From Caldithrix sp. (GTDB taxonomy: Bacteria > Calditrichota > Calditrichia > Calditrichales > Calditrichaceae), in the NCBI GenBank assembly GCA_014730185.1, contig WJIP01000129.1, forward strand, positions 1 to 34,269: a DNA stretch of 34,269 nucleotides, read 5' to 3'. The stretch's first letter is position 1, and each line of letters opens with the position of its first letter. A program made the position numbers and the translations under genes. Below the pieces are notes generated by a model, which saw only the letters and a program-made list of their open reading frames with translations, was not told the DNA's origin and ran no database searches. This document shows, piece by piece, positions 7,070 through 24,987 of the stretch.

Positions 7070-8083
7070 TTAATATTCAAGATGTGTGGTTGACCCGACT
7101 CTCTTACGGAAAACCCAGTATGTCCAGGCCTGATATCCCAAAACGATGGGAACGAAAATCAAGGCAACAATACTCATAATTTTCAGCGTATAGGGTGTGG
7201 AAGAGGCATTGTCGATGGTTAAACTGTATGCCGGATTAATACTGGATACCAGCACCCGTGGATAGAGACCCATGAAAATCGTTATGGTGGAAAAGACAAT
7301 AGTTAAACCCGTCATAATAAAAGCCCAGCCCGATAAATTGCGTTTCATTAAAAAGATAACTGAAATCAGCGAGAGGCCGGCAAAAATAGGAATGACACCT
7401 GGATTTATTCCCAATCGTGTGAACATGTCGGTGGCAAAGTAACCACCAATTACAAAAAGAAGCATAAAGATGAGGGTAGGCAACCATAATTTTTCAGCAA
7501 ATTGCTTTGCTTTTTCTCGCAATTCATCCTCTGTTTTTAAATTGAGAAAGATTGCGCCGTGCAGTAAGAACAGGAATAGCGAGGCCAGACCACCCGTCAG
7601 AGCGTAGGGATTAAGCAAATTGAAGAAACCGCCAACATAATTCATGTTTTGATCGATGGGTACACCACGTATAATGTTGGCAAGGGCCACGCCCCAAAGT
7701 AATGCGGGTATGAAACTGCCGATGAAGAGCATCCAATCCCAGGTTTTACGCCAGGTTGGGTTATTATCTTTGCTTCGAAATTCGAAAGCGACTCCCCGGA
7801 CAATGAGGGCTAGTAACATGAGTAATAATGCCAGATAAAAACCACTGAACATTGTCGCATACCAGTTGGGAAAGGCAGCAAACATGGCCCCCCCTGCGGT
7901 TAACAACCATACTTCATTTCCATCCCAGAATGTTCCGATTGTGTTAATGACCATTCGGCGTGAGCGATCATCCTTTGCGATGAAGGGTAGTAAAATACCA
8001 ACGCCGTAATCGAATCCTTCTAAAAAGAAAAATCCGGTAAATAAAACAGCGATCAATATAAACCAAAGGGTGTTTAATTCCAT
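7070..8083 (-). CDS. cydB: Cytochrome bd quinol oxidase subunit II
   Basis: This is a 337-residue, very hydrophobic protein with about eight or nine membrane helices, shorter than the 379 residues of E. coli CydB. The family hallmarks are at the N-terminus: FFLEGFDYGVGILLPF and, near residue 54, WDGNEVWLLTAGGAMFAAFP. CydB pairs with CydA in the inner membrane to oxidise quinol and reduce O2 to water with high affinity. An AGGAGG sits a few bases upstream of the ATG, overlapping the end of cydA (12-base gap). A strong terminator follows about 40 bases after the stop. No small cydX-like reading frame is evident after it. Confidence 0.95.
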   Translation of the reverse strand: MELNTLWFILIAVLFTGFFFLEGFDYGVGILLPFIAKDDRSRRMVINTIGTFWDGNEVWLLTAGGAMFAAFPNWYATMFSGFYLALLLMLLALIVRGVAFEFRSKDNNPTWRKTWDWMLFIGSFIPALLWGVALANIIRGVPIDQNMNYVGGFFNLLNPYALTGGLASLFLFLLHGAIFLNLKTEDELREKAKQFAEKLWLPTLIFMLLFVIGGYFATDMFTRLGINPGVIPIFAGLSLISVIFLMKRNLSGWAFIMTGLTIVFSTITIFMGLYPRVLVSSINPAYSLTIDNASSTPYTLKIMSIVALIFVPIVLGYQAWTYWVFRKRVGSTTHLEY

Positions 8084-8095
8084 GACATTATCCTC

Positions 8096-9475
8096 CTATT
8101 CCTCGTGATCTTCTGTATAGGTAGTGCCAGCAATAGCGTATTTTTTTAACAGATATACATCTACAACCATTAAAATGCCGTAAACCAGGGTAAACAATAT
8201 GAGTGATGTTAAAACTTCACCTGCACTTACAGCGACTGCAGGTGAAACCGCATCCTGTGTTTTAAGTAATCCAAACACAATCCAGGGCTGGCGGCCAACT
8301 TCTGCTAAAATCCAACCCGTGGAATTGGCAAGGTAGGGTAGAGTCAGAGACAAAAGGAGTATCTTTATAAGCCAGGGCTTAAAATCAAACCGATCTCTGA
8401 GCACCAAAAAGATAACATAAAGGGATATAAACACCATCAAAACACCAGCGCCTACCATAATACGAAATGACCAGTAAGAAATGGCGACCGGTGGAACATA
8501 ATTGCCGGGACCGTATTTTTGTACATATTCTGCCTGAATATCATTGATACCACGAACGGTGCCATCTACTGAGTTAAATGCCAATATGGATAATAAACGC
8601 GGTACGCGTATGGCAAAAATATCTTTCCGTTCCTCTTCATCGCCCACTGTAAAAAGCGACAGACTGGCCGGATCTTCGGTATCCCATAAAGCTTCTGCCG
8701 CAGCCACTTTCATCGGCTGTACTTTCATCATATGCTGCATTTGTGTGTGTCCGATAAGAACCGCCAGCAGAACGCCGATAAAGGCATAAACAGAACTTAT
8801 TTTTAATGATTTTTGATAGGCATCCTGATCTTTACTTCTTTTCCAGATATGGTAGGTACTGATGGCGATTACAAAAAATCCTGCTGTAGCAATGCCCGAT
8901 GTAATAACATGGGGAAATTGAACCCAGACGTGCGGATTGAATACCAGAGCCCAAAAATCTGCCATTTCTGCCCGTACAACTTCTCCAGCGGCATTGGTTA
9001 CCAATCGATAACCCTGTGGTTCCTGCATGAAAGAATTGGCAATTAGAATCCATAAAGCAGACAGGTTGGAACCGATTGCCACCAGCCACATAGTGGCAGC
9101 GTGCAATTTTTTTGATAAACGATCCCAGCCGAATATCCAGATCCCTAAAAAAGTTGATTCCAGAAAAAAGGCCAGCAAAGCTTCAATGGCCAGGGGGGCA
9201 CCGAATATGTCACCCACAAAGCGGGAGTATTCCGACCAGTTCATACCAAATTGAAATTCCTGTACAATCCCTGTAACAACGCCCATGGCAAAGTTAATAA
9301 GAAATAGCTTTCCCCAAAATTTGGTCATACGTTTGTAAACATCTTTACCCGTGCGGACATAGGCCGTTTCCAGGATGGCCACAAAAATGGACAGTCCCAG
9401 GGTGAGGGGGACAAAAAAGAAATGGTATATCGTCGTAACGGCAAATTGCCAGCGGGCCAGAATTAAAACATCCAT
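8096..9475 (-). CDS. cydA: Cytochrome bd quinol oxidase subunit I
   Basis: This is the haem-carrying subunit, 459 residues. Expected ligands are present: H18 for b595 (IYHFFFVPLTLG), H189 (QFPHV) and M340 (YWSFRIM) for b558, acidic E98 and E106 in the second helix pair, and the GRQPW motif at 394-398. Total length fits the short Q-loop form of Bacillus/Geobacillus type rather than the about 520-residue E. coli form. The first gene after the Rrf2 regulator, it has a strong AGGAGG five bases before the ATG and lies only 21 bases from the regulator's stop. This supports one transcript of regulator, cydA and cydB. Its presence indicates microaerobic respiration or O2 scavenging. Confidence 0.96.
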   Translation of the reverse strand: MDVLILARWQFAVTTIYHFFFVPLTLGLSIFVAILETAYVRTGKDVYKRMTKFWGKLFLINFAMGVVTGIVQEFQFGMNWSEYSRFVGDIFGAPLAIEALLAFFLESTFLGIWIFGWDRLSKKLHAATMWLVAIGSNLSALWILIANSFMQEPQGYRLVTNAAGEVVRAEMADFWALVFNPHVWVQFPHVITSGIATAGFFVIAISTYHIWKRSKDQDAYQKSLKISSVYAFIGVLLAVLIGHTQMQHMMKVQPMKVAAAEALWDTEDPASLSLFTVGDEEERKDIFAIRVPRLLSILAFNSVDGTVRGINDIQAEYVQKYGPGNYVPPVAISYWSFRIMVGAGVLMVFISLYVIFLVLRDRFDFKPWLIKILLLSLTLPYLANSTGWILAEVGRQPWIVFGLLKTQDAVSPAVAVSAGEVLTSLILFTLVYGILMVVDVYLLKKYAIAGTTYTEDHEE

Positions 9476-9496
9476 ATAAGCCTCCTATTTTAAGTT

Positions 9497-9961
9497 TTAA
9501 ATCGTTTCCTGTTGAGTATCAGTTGGAACGCGTTTGAGTTGAAAACGTCGTTTCTTGTTGAAAATGAAATCGACAAGCCTTTTATCCCTGAACGCCGCAA
9601 ACAATTTGTCCTCCTGTTCATTAAAAAAAGTATGAATGGCACAATCACCCACAAATGGGCAAACTTCATGGTTTTGAATACATTCATTGAGAGTGGAATC
9701 GAAATCCATGGCCTGGAAAACATCCATTACCGAAATATCGTTGGGGTCTTTTTTAAGATAAATACCACCAAATTTGCCCTGGACCGTTCCCAACAGGTCA
9801 GCCTTTCGTAGCTTATGAACAATTTTGGAAGCAAAGGGTCTGCTGATGTGCAGGTAATTGGTTATCTTGGATAGTGGAAGCGTTTTGACCTGAAAAAATT
9901 CAGCTAAATAGGTGCATATGCGTAAAGCATAATCGTATTCGCGTTTAATAAATACATTCAT
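9497..9961 (-). CDS. Rrf2-family transcriptional regulator with three-cysteine cluster motif
   Basis: This is a 154-residue winged-helix regulator of the family that includes IscR, NsrR and RirA. The N-terminal helix-turn-helix lies at about residues 28-60 (LPLSKITNYLHISRPFASKI), followed by the wing with the family GGIYL turn. The loop after the dimer helix holds C94, C101 and C107 (spacing C-x6-C-x5-C), the position where IscR and NsrR bind an Fe-S cluster. The protein could therefore sense O2, NO or iron status. It is the first gene of the cyd transcript, so autoregulation together with control of the oxidase is likely. The ATG at 9961 is preceded by only a weak ribosome site. The exact subgroup cannot be told from sequence alone. 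Confidence 0.9.
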   Translation of the reverse strand: MNVFIKREYDYALRICTYLAEFFQVKTLPLSKITNYLHISRPFASKIVHKLRKADLLGTVQGKFGGIYLKKDPNDISVMDVFQAMDFDSTLNECIQNHEVCPFVGDCAIHTFFNEQEDKLFAAFRDKRLVDFIFNKKRRFQLKRVPTDTQQETI

Positions 9962-10244: not shown

Positions 10245-10886
10245 ATGAATAACAAAAATACTATCTTGCTAATAATAGGATTATTATTGATTGGTTGTAC
10301 AGCCACGGTTAACAAATCGATCTATATTGAAGATGGTCAAACTAAAGAAGGTGATATCAATACGGTCAATGGAGCCATCATCATTGGAGAAAACTGCAAG
10401 GTATTTGGGAATAGCCGGGCCGTGAACGGCCACATTGAAGTAGGTAAGGGCAGTCTTGTAGAGGGCTTAACCACTGTAAATGGTTCCATATCCATCGCCC
10501 GTCAGTGTAGCGTAACCAATGATATCCGGAGCATAAATGGCCGTATCGATACCGAAATGGAAACCAAAATTGATGGACGGGTTTCAACGATAAACGGTGA
10601 TATTGAATTTAAGGGTACACATATTCTGCGCGATGTGGAAACGATTAACGGTGATCTTTATCTTAAAGCGGGAAGCGTAGTAGAAGGGAATATCATAGTG
10701 GAAGATAAAGGTCATTTCAGCGATGATGAGAAACATCGTATCGATATCTACATTATGCAAGAGAGTTTGGTTAAAGGTGATGTGCGGGTAGAGAATAAAA
10801 ACGCTGTGGTCGAATTACATCTCTCGGAAAACAGTAAAGTACTGGGTGATATTATCAATGCCGAAATCATTTATGAAAATAATTAA
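10245..10886 (+). CDS. Repeat-built lipoprotein, polymer-forming/bactofilin-like beta-helix
   Basis: This is a 213-residue protein with a lipoprotein signal: hydrophobic residues 7-17 and a lipobox LIGC with C18. The residue after the cysteine is Thr, not Asp, which would favour outer-membrane sorting. The mature part contains six copies of a [VI]-N-G-x-[IL] motif, with the Asn at 42, 61, 79, 98, 117 and 135. The spacing of 18-19 residues is what is expected for one turn per repeat in a beta-solenoid. Similar VNG/ING repeats occur in bactofilin-like and polymer-forming proteins, but I cannot place it in a named family. A strong AAGGAG lies six bases before the ATG. It is transcribed divergently from the Rrf2-cyd operon and shares its control region. 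Function unknown. Confidence 0.8.
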   Translation: MNNKNTILLIIGLLLIGCTATVNKSIYIEDGQTKEGDINTVNGAIIIGENCKVFGNSRAVNGHIEVGKGSLVEGLTTVNGSISIARQCSVTNDIRSINGRIDTEMETKIDGRVSTINGDIEFKGTHILRDVETINGDLYLKAGSVVEGNIIVEDKGHFSDDEKHRIDIYIMQESLVKGDVRVENKNAVVELHLSENSKVLGDIINAEIIYENN

Positions 10887-11989: not shown

Positions 11990-13870
11990 ATGATTAAAGG
12001 CATTAACAACGGCAATATAGCCGATTATATTCGAACAATAGAGCTTTTTCGTGATCTAACGGATAATGAAATCGAAATACTAATGAATGAGATCGAGGAG
12101 GAGCATTACCAAACGGGACAGTTCCTGTTTAAGGAAAACATGCCTCGGGAAAAGTTGTTTTTAATATATCAGGGCGAAATTGAATTACTCAAAAAATCGG
12201 CGTTGGGAGAGGAAAAGCGTCTCGGAATTTTTAAAACCTATGATTTTTTAGGTGAAGGCGCTCTGATGGATGCCTACCCGCATTCAACATCGTCGCGGGC
12301 TTTAGTAGATACAAAGGTTTTTGTCCTCAAAGCTAAAAAATTCACAAAATTATTTGAGAACCAGCCTGCTTTGGCGGGGAAAATTCTGGCTCATGTGGCC
12401 AGGGTTATCTCCCGGAGAATGCGTCAGACAACTTCTCAGGTGGTTGACATTGCCGCGCAATACATTTCCGGGCGAACCCGACAGGAACATGATTTATTGG
12501 GCGAGCGCTATGTTCCCCACGAATATTATTATGGCATCCAAACATTAAGGGCGCTGGAAAATTTCAGTATAAGCGGCGTTCCGCTTATGCATTTTCCTCT
12601 ACTTATAGAATCTCTGGCCATGGTTAAGATGGCGGCGGCAAAAGCTAACCTGGAAATTGGATTGTTAAGCAAGCCGGTGGCTAATGCCATCATCCAGGCC
12701 TGTACAGAAATTATGAATGGAAAATTTCATACCCAGTTTGTTGTGGATATGATTCAGGGAGGAGCAGGCACATCCACTAATATGAATGCCAATGAAGTGA
12801 TTGCCAACAGGGCGCTGGAAATATTGGGATATGAAAAAGGACAGTATACGCATTGTCATCCCAATAACCATGTTAATTTATCTCAATCAACCAATGATGT
12901 GTATCCCACTGCCCTTAAAATTGCTTTAATCAACAGCAATCGAAAACTTACTGGTGTTTTAAAAGATTTGGTAGACGCCATCCGGCAAAAAGCGGACACG
13001 TTTAAAGATATAATCAAAATGGGTCGTACACAGCTTCAGGATGCTGTACCAATGACTCTTGGACAGGAATTCGGGGCATACGCCGCTACTTTGCAGGAGG
13101 AAATTGAACGTCTACAAGTAAATGCGGATTTATTTCTTGAAGTCAATCTGGGCGGCACAGCTATAGGAACAGGCATCAACGCAGATCCAAAGTACAGCGT
13201 CCTCGCCATTGATTATCTGAAAACGATTTCCAAATTAAATGTAAAATTAGCTCCGGATTTAGTGGAAGCAACCCAGGATACAGGGGCTTTTGTGATGTAT
13301 TCCTCTGCCCTGAAACGATTGGCTATCAAACTTTCAAAAATGTCCAGTGATTTACGGTTGTTATCTTCCGGTCCCCGCGCCGGTTTTCACGAAATTAATT
13401 TGCCGAAAATGCAGCCGGGTTCATCCATAATGCCGGGTAAGGTTAATCCTGTGATACCGGAAGTCGTCAATCAAATTACCTATAAAGTTATTGGTAACGA
13501 TTTAACGGTTTCAATGGCCGCCGAGGCGGGCCAACTGGAACTGAATGTAATGGAACCGATCATTGCTCAGAGTATATTCGAATCCATTGAAATGCTTAAA
13601 AACGGTATGGCCACACTCCATCAGCGTTGTATAGAGGGTATTACAGCGAATGAAGCCCGTACGCGACAAATGGTGGAAAACAGTATCGGTCTGGTGACGG
13701 CCCTGAATCCGGTGCTGGGTTACGAGGTTTGTAGTTCTTTGGCCAGCGAAGCCCTGCAAGCGGACAAGAGTGTATACGATTTGGTGTTACAAAAAAAACT
13801 ATTAACCAAAGAAGAACTGGATCGATTGATATTACCGGAAAATATGATCGGACCCAACCGTCTAAAATAA
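11990..13870 (+). CDS. aspA: Cyclic nucleotide-binding-like domain fused to aspartate ammonia-lyase
   Basis: This 626-residue protein has two parts. Residues about 12-145 form a CRP/FNR-type effector domain (FRDLTDNEIE, then the beta-roll with FLGEGALMDAYPHSTSSRAL near 86-104) without any helix-turn-helix. Residues about 162-626 are a full aspartase: DLLGERYVPHEYYYGIQT near 168-184, QSTNDVYPTA at 299-308, and the flexible catalytic loop GSSIMPGKVNP at 477-487. The text IGNDLTVSMAAEAGQLELN near 501-519 is much closer to AspA than to fumarase. The reaction is L-aspartate to fumarate plus ammonia, reversible. Glu is kept in the phosphate cassette (GEG), but the position of CRP Arg82 is His98, so cAMP binding is doubtful and another ligand is possible. 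AGGAAGG precedes the ATG. The next genes use aspartate and release fumarate. Confidence 0.9.
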   Translation: MIKGINNGNIADYIRTIELFRDLTDNEIEILMNEIEEEHYQTGQFLFKENMPREKLFLIYQGEIELLKKSALGEEKRLGIFKTYDFLGEGALMDAYPHSTSSRALVDTKVFVLKAKKFTKLFENQPALAGKILAHVARVISRRMRQTTSQVVDIAAQYISGRTRQEHDLLGERYVPHEYYYGIQTLRALENFSISGVPLMHFPLLIESLAMVKMAAAKANLEIGLLSKPVANAIIQACTEIMNGKFHTQFVVDMIQGGAGTSTNMNANEVIANRALEILGYEKGQYTHCHPNNHVNLSQSTNDVYPTALKIALINSNRKLTGVLKDLVDAIRQKADTFKDIIKMGRTQLQDAVPMTLGQEFGAYAATLQEEIERLQVNADLFLEVNLGGTAIGTGINADPKYSVLAIDYLKTISKLNVKLAPDLVEATQDTGAFVMYSSALKRLAIKLSKMSSDLRLLSSGPRAGFHEINLPKMQPGSSIMPGKVNPVIPEVVNQITYKVIGNDLTVSMAAEAGQLELNVMEPIIAQSIFESIEMLKNGMATLHQRCIEGITANEARTRQMVENSIGLVTALNPVLGYEVCSSLASEALQADKSVYDLVLQKKLLTKEELDRLILPENMIGPNRLK

Positions 13871-23601: not shown

Positions 23602-24987
23602 ATGAATTGTTTAACGACAATTATCACCCCTCAAATTGAAAAAATCCATTCCGGAAAGGTGCGGGAAAGTTTTCGTATCGATGAAAATACCCGTATGATT
23701 GTGGCAACCGACCGCATTTCCAGCTTCGATAAGGTGCTGGATACGCCCATTCCCGGCAAAGGGGCGGTTTTGAATAAATTAGCCGCCTATTGGTTCAAAG
23801 AAACCAAAGATATTATCGAAAATCATTTTGTCGAAGTTATTGATCCAAACATTTCGCTGGTCAGGGAAGCCACGCCTATCCGTGTGGAAATGATTGTAAG
23901 GGGCTATATGACCGGTTCGGCATGGCGCAGCTATCAGCAGGGCAAACGCACGGTTTCGGGAGTACAAATTCCCGACGGTATGAAAAAGAACCAGGCCTTC
24001 GATGAACCCATTGTAACCCCGACCACCAAAGAAGAAAGCGATCGCGAAATTTCCGCTAAAGAGCTGGTGGAAGAAGGATGGGTGTCGGCCGAAATTTATA
24101 AGGCCATGGAAAAGACCTCCTTAAAATTGTTTAAGCACGGCCAGGCAGTGCTCAAAGAACGGGGCATTATTCTAGTGGATACCAAATACGAGTTTGGCCT
24201 GATCGATAATAAACTGGTTTTGATTGATGAAATTCATACGCCGGATTCTTCGCGGTTCTGGTCCGCTGAAAATTACGAGACTGAGCCCGATAACGCCGAA
24301 CAACTGGATAAAGAATATGTGCGCAGCTATCTGTTGAAACACAAAAAAGACGGCGCTTATCCCAACACGTTACCCAATGATGTGGTGCAGGAAACCACCC
24401 GTCGGTATCGGGATATTTATGGTATGATTACCGGTGAAGTCCTGCCCGAAATCGATAACAATACCCGTAGCCGGGTCCATGCCAATCTGGTCCGGCATAA
24501 ATTGATCAAAGACGGTTTTGTGGCTATTATCATGGGTTCACCTTCGGATCTGGATCATTGCAATAAAATGAAAGACATCATGGAGCAGTACGATATTATG
24601 GTTGATTTAAGGGTGGTATCAGCGCACAAAAACGGGGAAAATCTGGGCCAAGTCATTAAAGAATATAACAATTCCATCGAACCGGCCGCCATAATAGCGG
24701 TTGCCGGTCGATCTAATGGTCTGGGCGGTGCTCTGGCAGCCAACGTCACAGTACCAGTGATCAACTGTCCGCCGTTTAAGGATAAAACCGATCAAATGGT
24801 CAACATCAATTCCTCTTTGATGATGCCGTCCAATACGCCGGCGGTTACGGTGGTCGATCCTAAGAATGCGGCCATGGCCGCATTGCGCACCCTCAATCTG
24901 CCGCGACTTAAGACGCGGTTCGAAGAAGAAATCAATGAAATGAAATCGGAGTTAAAAGCAGCCGATAAACGGGTAAGGGGCCGTTAA
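23602..24987 (+). CDS. purC/purE: Fused SAICAR synthetase (PurC) and class II AIR carboxylase (PurE)
   Basis: One 461-residue chain carries two consecutive pathway steps. Residues 1 to about 290 are a PurC of the long, yeast Ade1-like type: SGKVRESF at 17-24, RGYMTGSAWRSY at 100-111, DTKYEFGLID at 193-202 and TPDSSRFW at 213-220. Residues about 305-461 are PurE: IMGSPSDLDHC at 310-320, SAHK at 340-343 and AGRSNGLGG at 368-376. The GRSNGLG form is that of class II enzymes (animal PAICS, Treponema), which carboxylate AIR with CO2, instead of the AGGAAH form of class I mutases. That agrees with no purK in the cluster. AGGAGG lies just before the ATG. purB, the next step, begins four bases after the stop. 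Confidence 0.93.
   Translation: MNCLTTIITPQIEKIHSGKVRESFRIDENTRMIVATDRISSFDKVLDTPIPGKGAVLNKLAAYWFKETKDIIENHFVEVIDPNISLVREATPIRVEMIVRGYMTGSAWRSYQQGKRTVSGVQIPDGMKKNQAFDEPIVTPTTKEESDREISAKELVEEGWVSAEIYKAMEKTSLKLFKHGQAVLKERGIILVDTKYEFGLIDNKLVLIDEIHTPDSSRFWSAENYETEPDNAEQLDKEYVRSYLLKHKKDGAYPNTLPNDVVQETTRRYRDIYGMITGEVLPEIDNNTRSRVHANLVRHKLIKDGFVAIIMGSPSDLDHCNKMKDIMEQYDIMVDLRVVSAHKNGENLGQVIKEYNNSIEPAAIIAVAGRSNGLGGALAANVTVPVINCPPFKDKTDQMVNINSSLMMPSNTPAVTVVDPKNAAMAALRTLNLPRLKTRFEEEINEMKSELKAADKRVRGR

Follow-up and report, generated by a model that had tools for sequence, protein, structure and literature searches.

Domains of the CRP type are known mainly as sensors in the control of transcription. They also occur fused to enzymes, as in the mycobacterial acetyltransferase Pat, a cAMP-activated enzyme in which a cNMP-type domain lies N-terminally of the catalytic domain. 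In the regulatory subunit of the PKA of kinetoplastids, the cNMP fold has lost the Arg that binds the phosphate, and this loss accompanies a change of ligand to nucleosides, whilst an extra Glu, at the position of A202/A326 of human PKARIα, binds the 3'/5'-OH of the ribose (PMC10959531). The known solved aspartases are enzymes of ~470 residues without an N-terminal sensor domain. According to a passage in PMC10634366 that cites Schubert et al. (2021), AspA of Escherichia coli was reported to interact with GlnB, which is a separate protein.

The window, i.e., the whole stretch of 34,269 nucleotides of contig WJIP01000129.1 of Caldithrix sp. that was analyzed, contains an aspartate ammonia-lyase gene (11990..13870, + strand) with the sensor domain built in. 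The gene is a single uninterrupted frame of 626 codons, for which at least 80 full-length homologs were found. It starts with ATG, and an AGGAAGG stretch resembling a ribosome-binding site can be read just 5' of it. In a Pfam scan, all three families detected in the protein, cNMP_binding, Lyase_1, and FumaraseC_C, exceeded their cut-offs.

The catalytic part comprises residues 164–626 (12479..13867, +), with Lyase_1 at residues 172–502 (E 6e-95) and FumaraseC_C at residues 568–620 (E 2e-18). It scored 692.6 bits with the NCBIfam model TIGR00839 (aspA), for which the curated equivalog cut-off is 681.2, and 731.6 bits with PRK12273 (cut-off 510). As in the class II AspA enzymes of known structure (6wng, 1jsw, 1j3u), the catalytic part is complete; 6wng, the aspartase of Elizabethkingia, is the nearest solved structure by both sequence and fold. 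The catalytic (SS) loop, GSSIMPGKVNP, is read directly at residues 477–487 (13418..13450, +) and is conserved in the 81 fusion sequences to which all conservation figures refer: S478, I480, M481, P482, G483, K484, N486, and P487 were each found in 81/81. Furthermore, the protein has the motif GRTQLQDA, with a Gln that is common to most unfused aspartases compared, whereas fumarases have a His there. The fumarase of the source genome (fumC_II, 751 bits) indeed has GRTHLQDA. Thus, the catalytic part is, as judged from its sequence, a complete aspartate ammonia-lyase with all catalytic motifs and is predicted to convert aspartate to fumarate and ammonia. The source genome encodes three class II lyases. 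As the other two are fumarase C and a divergent unfused paralog, which exceeds the cut-off of PRK12273 but falls below the aspA equivalog cut-off, the fused enzyme alone is above the latter. The paralog (L083, G000:C3:5929-7305) is an aspartase-family protein on a very long branch of 4.2 changes per site.

The N-terminal part, residues ~7–147 (12008..12430, +), is a CRP-type β-roll with flanking helices, including a C-helix at residues 126–147, as found with Pfam, AlphaFold2, and Foldseek. Pfam places cNMP_binding at residues 38–124 (E 1.9e-16), and the score, 60.2 bits where 27.5 would suffice, answers the doubt, raised with the original prediction, whether a profile search would detect such a domain here. 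NCBIfam models of CRP and of encapsulin-2B match inside residues 10–165, and that of Pat matches the protein weakly. An AlphaFold2 model of the isolated domain had a pLDDT of 85.4 and a pTM of 0.81, and its best Foldseek matches were sensor domains of the CRP/GlxR type (E 2.5e-12). No match to the sensor domain was found in PHROGs. The β-roll, the C-helix, and the Glu in the ligand cassette are shared with the CRP/FNR sensors, such as E. coli CRP, GlxR, and CRP of Mycobacterium tuberculosis. Unlike these regulators, the protein has no helix-turn-helix, has His98 where they have the phosphate-binding Arg, and carries an enzyme. Pat has the same design, but with another enzyme and another pocket.

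The equivalent of the phosphate-binding cassette is found at residues 85–103 (DFLGEGALMDAYPHSTSSR; 12242..12298, +). This is the least variable 19-residue window of the sensor domain, with an entropy of 0.72 bits vs. a domain mean of 1.67 in the 81 sequences. In alignments with PKG, PKA, and CRP, Glu89 coincides with the ribose-binding Glu and His98 with the phosphate-binding Arg (DFLGEGALMDAYPHSTS in this protein vs. DYFGERALLYDEPRTAS in PKG). Thus, of the residues that characterize a canonical cAMP or cGMP site, the ribose Glu is present and the phosphate Arg is absent. His98 is found in 80/81 fusion sequences, the single exception being a Gln in L060, and D85, E89, and S99 are each found in all 81. 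The cassette Arg is retained in four other cNMP domains of the source genome (FGEMALLTGEPRSAS and similar) and likewise in the nearest non-fused cNMP domains of the phylum, which makes the His specific to the fused family among the domains checked. A standalone copy of the His-type sensor was not found in 40 genomes of the phylum with a sensor profile: the fusions scored 208–235 bits, and nothing else exceeded 95 bits. The original prediction thus proved correct in its main elements: a CRP/FNR-type β-roll is fused in frame to a full-length aspartase (Pfam, NCBIfam, and one open frame), the lyase loop is intact, the phosphate-binding Arg of CRP is replaced by His98, and a DNA-binding domain is missing, as the C-helix continues into the lyase and the Pfam scan returned no helix-turn-helix family.

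The end of the C-helix and the linker to the lyase (residues 142–163; 12413..12478, +) are conserved as well: R142, R143, Y158, and S160 are invariant (81/81), and Q157 and G161 are found in 80/81. In the AlphaFold2 model of the full-length protein (pTM 0.69), residues 144–160 have a pLDDT below 50, and the placement of the linker and the domains is of low confidence, too weak for conclusions about geometry.

The gene lies upstream of an almost unbroken cluster of purine and pyrimidine genes on one strand (14058-34268, +), running from guaB to pyrI. It includes guaB, purA, purM, purL, purQ, purH, purC-purE, purB, purD, purN, and purF, and the pyrimidine genes pyrC, pyrE, pyrF, pyrB, and pyrI; most of these names come from reading the translations, those of guaB, purA, purC-purE, purN, and pyrI being verified by Pfam. 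The location is suggestive, since several enzymes encoded in the cluster use aspartate. A functional operon with the purine genes was, however, rejected: a gap of 187 nt precedes guaB, and the neighbors are not conserved in relatives, where guaB and the pur genes were each found near the fusion in only 0–2 of 86 loci and the most shared neighbor family in at most 9. A scan for promoters and terminators revealed nothing above shuffled sequences. Within the cluster, SAICAR synthetase is fused to AIR carboxylase (23602-24987, +), i.e., PurC and PurE form one chain as in vertebrate PAICS. On the other side of the aspartase gene, the stretch 10245-10886 (+) encodes a predicted lipoprotein in which 'VNG-I' motifs recur and for which Pfam gave no match, and cydA/cydB-like and cydD/cydC-like genes adjoin a gene for an Rrf2-family regulator (7070-9961, −). 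Parts of the latter block are also present near the fusion in L013, which is the same locus as that of G006 of the source's own family.

The reading that we favor, with moderate confidence, is that of a homo-oligomeric aspartase, the activity of which would be set by the built-in CRP-type sensor with its altered nucleotide-type pocket. The homo-oligomeric state is assumed by analogy with known aspartases, and we infer that the sensor controls the enzyme by binding a small molecule. This ligand would enter the β-roll and cause the C-helix to move, as in CRP and PKA, and the segment R142/R143...QYxSGRTRxEHDLLG, which is conserved, would relay the movement to the lyase at its N-terminal part. As a result, the activity of the lyase would change, by either activation or inhibition. 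Since the ribose-binding Glu89 and Ser99 are kept, the ligand may be nucleotide-like, but probably not cAMP bound in the canonical mode.

It could be argued that the sensor binds cAMP or cGMP after all, with His98, Ser99, and perhaps the arginines of helix C taking the place of the canonical Arg, which would make the protein an ordinary cNMP-controlled aspartase. The retention of E89 and of the invariant Ser following the Arg position is in line with this option, and the His could still bind phosphate. Moreover, the source genome (G000) encodes two class III cyclases, besides one CYTH protein and one diadenylate cyclase, and at least one class III cyclase is encoded in 12/15 tested fusion genomes, G000 included. 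Yet, the His is almost invariant, although domains with the canonical Arg exist in the source genome itself. Furthermore, two of the 14 other fusion genomes, G044 and G052, showed no match to PF00211 (class III), PF01295 (class I), or PF01928 (CYTH), the three families on which this absence rests. G044 is the single-chromosome record of Zixibacteria bin25 and G052 is a draft, and the fusions in both keep the cassette with the His. Also, PF00211 cyclases are present in 40/40 genomes of the phylum, whereas the fusion is present in only 7/40; hence, the presence of a cyclase predicts nothing about that of the fusion. We therefore consider control by cAMP or cGMP unlikely in this protein. Given G044 and G052, these nucleotides are also unlikely as the universal ligand across the family in their canonical role, although a single species may still use them. 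The earlier suggestion of a possible ligand other than cAMP is strengthened by the near-invariant His98, the Arg in the sibling domains, and the two genomes lacking the tested cyclases. Diadenylate cyclases are encoded in 15/15 tested fusion genomes, but, as they are also found in 11/14 unrelated controls, the connection is only a lead.

Alternatively, the N-terminal domain could be a structural or docking module, serving in dimerization, stability, or the binding of a partner without any ligand. The C-helices of CRP-type domains are known to dimerize, and here conservation is strong in the linker and in parts of the C-helix. Some domains of the CRP family function without a ligand, according to a passage in PMC11253593, and the conservation of the cassette might likewise reflect a contact that is purely structural. 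Nevertheless, the constraint peaks at the ligand cassette and not at the dimerization helix, which has an entropy of 1.44 bits vs. 0.72 for the cassette, and such a role is deemed rather improbable.

As a further option, the sensor might bind a purine nucleoside, like kinetoplastid PKA, and so link the supply of aspartate to purine synthesis. The combination of a replaced Arg with a retained ribose Glu and the purine cluster downstream, starting with guaB and purA, fits this idea. However, the compensating Glu that defines the kinetoplastid pocket is absent, residue 91 being Ser, Ala, Thr, Val, or Gly in 81/81 fusion sequences, so a pocket of the kinetoplastid type was rejected, and the purine neighborhood is not conserved in relatives. 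This link is therefore very improbable. Finally, that the gene results from misassembly, from a frameshift, or from two genes read as one, as might be feared with a draft source genome of 398 contigs and as the original prediction had allowed for, can be dismissed with near certainty, since no support for it was found and the same in-frame fusion is present in at least 80 independent assemblies, single-chromosome records among them.

Returning to the favored sensor-controlled aspartase, the original prediction had anticipated that similar fusions may exist in databases. They turned out to be plentiful and represent a conserved family rather than a one-off. A scan of GTDB-representative genomes yielded 177 confirmed relatives. 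All of the 80 analyzed in detail are full-length fusions in one frame (residues ~10–626, 64–72% identity), so that this one scan holds at least 80 and possibly up to 177 fusions. The 80 are labeled Bacteroidota (36), Ignavibacteriota (24), and Zixibacteria (6), with a few further ones in Calditrichota, Electryoneota, Gemmatimonadota, and others; the fusion is found mainly in the FCB group, mostly in uncultured bacteria, although Perlabentimonas gracilis (L079) is a cultured carrier. Contigs L036, L046, L068, and L060 carry the labels Caldisericaceae, Syntrophobacteraceae, and Bacillota. Such unexpected assignments (Caldisericota, Bacillota, Thermodesulfobacteriota) may reflect errors in binning or naming, and the label of the "Caldisericaceae" locus L036 is probably wrong, because its lyase is identical to that of G002, which belongs to the Calditrichaceae, the source's own family. 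Within the Calditrichota, the seven genomes with the fusion are all Calditrichaceae (7/15 there). In a sample of 197 Bacteroidia genomes, the fusion was found only in the genome used as the center, and 15 others have an unfused aspartase with 50–61% identity. Thus, the distribution is wide but patchy. The Zixibacteria chromosome G045 contains two matching places, C1:1369245-1370507 and C1:2618082-2619917. One of these matches comprises the sensor and part of the lyase, with 66% identity over query residues 9–429, and is possibly a second copy of the fusion.

In a tree of the lyase part, constructed by a quick search and rooted at the midpoint, a single branch (SH-aLRT 95) separates the fused proteins from the unfused aspartases. 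The fused or unfused state requires one change on this tree vs. a mean of 32 when shuffled, which is consistent with one fusion event. The sensor is more divergent than the lyase, with mean pairwise distances over the 81 sequences of 0.51 vs. 0.23, and the distances of the two parts correlate (Mantel r 0.65; 0/999 permutations as high). Together with the single supported branch, this correlation suggests that sensor and lyase have stayed joined ever since they were fused long ago.

Whilst the combination of an enzyme with a cNMP-type domain is a known design, its occurrence with an aspartase, in several phyla and with a family-specific His cassette, has apparently not been described; no paper on an aspartase with a cyclic-nucleotide-binding domain was found in the open-access literature, though this argues only weakly that none exists. 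With its invariant His, the cassette suggests that the ligand differs from canonical cAMP, and this ligand can be searched for directly, because the protein is a single chain, is predicted to be soluble, and has an easy spectrophotometric assay (fumarate, 240 nm). We put forward tentatively, as a proposition with a little less than an even chance, that the FCB group contains widespread aspartases gated by a small molecule, in which the His-for-Arg cassette defines an undescribed ligand class of the CRP fold and the flux of nitrogen and fumarate would be controlled post-translationally and independently of cAMP. Aspartase links aspartate, ammonia, and fumarate. Thus, if true, the family would offer a clear prokaryotic case of the CRP fold acting directly on central metabolism.
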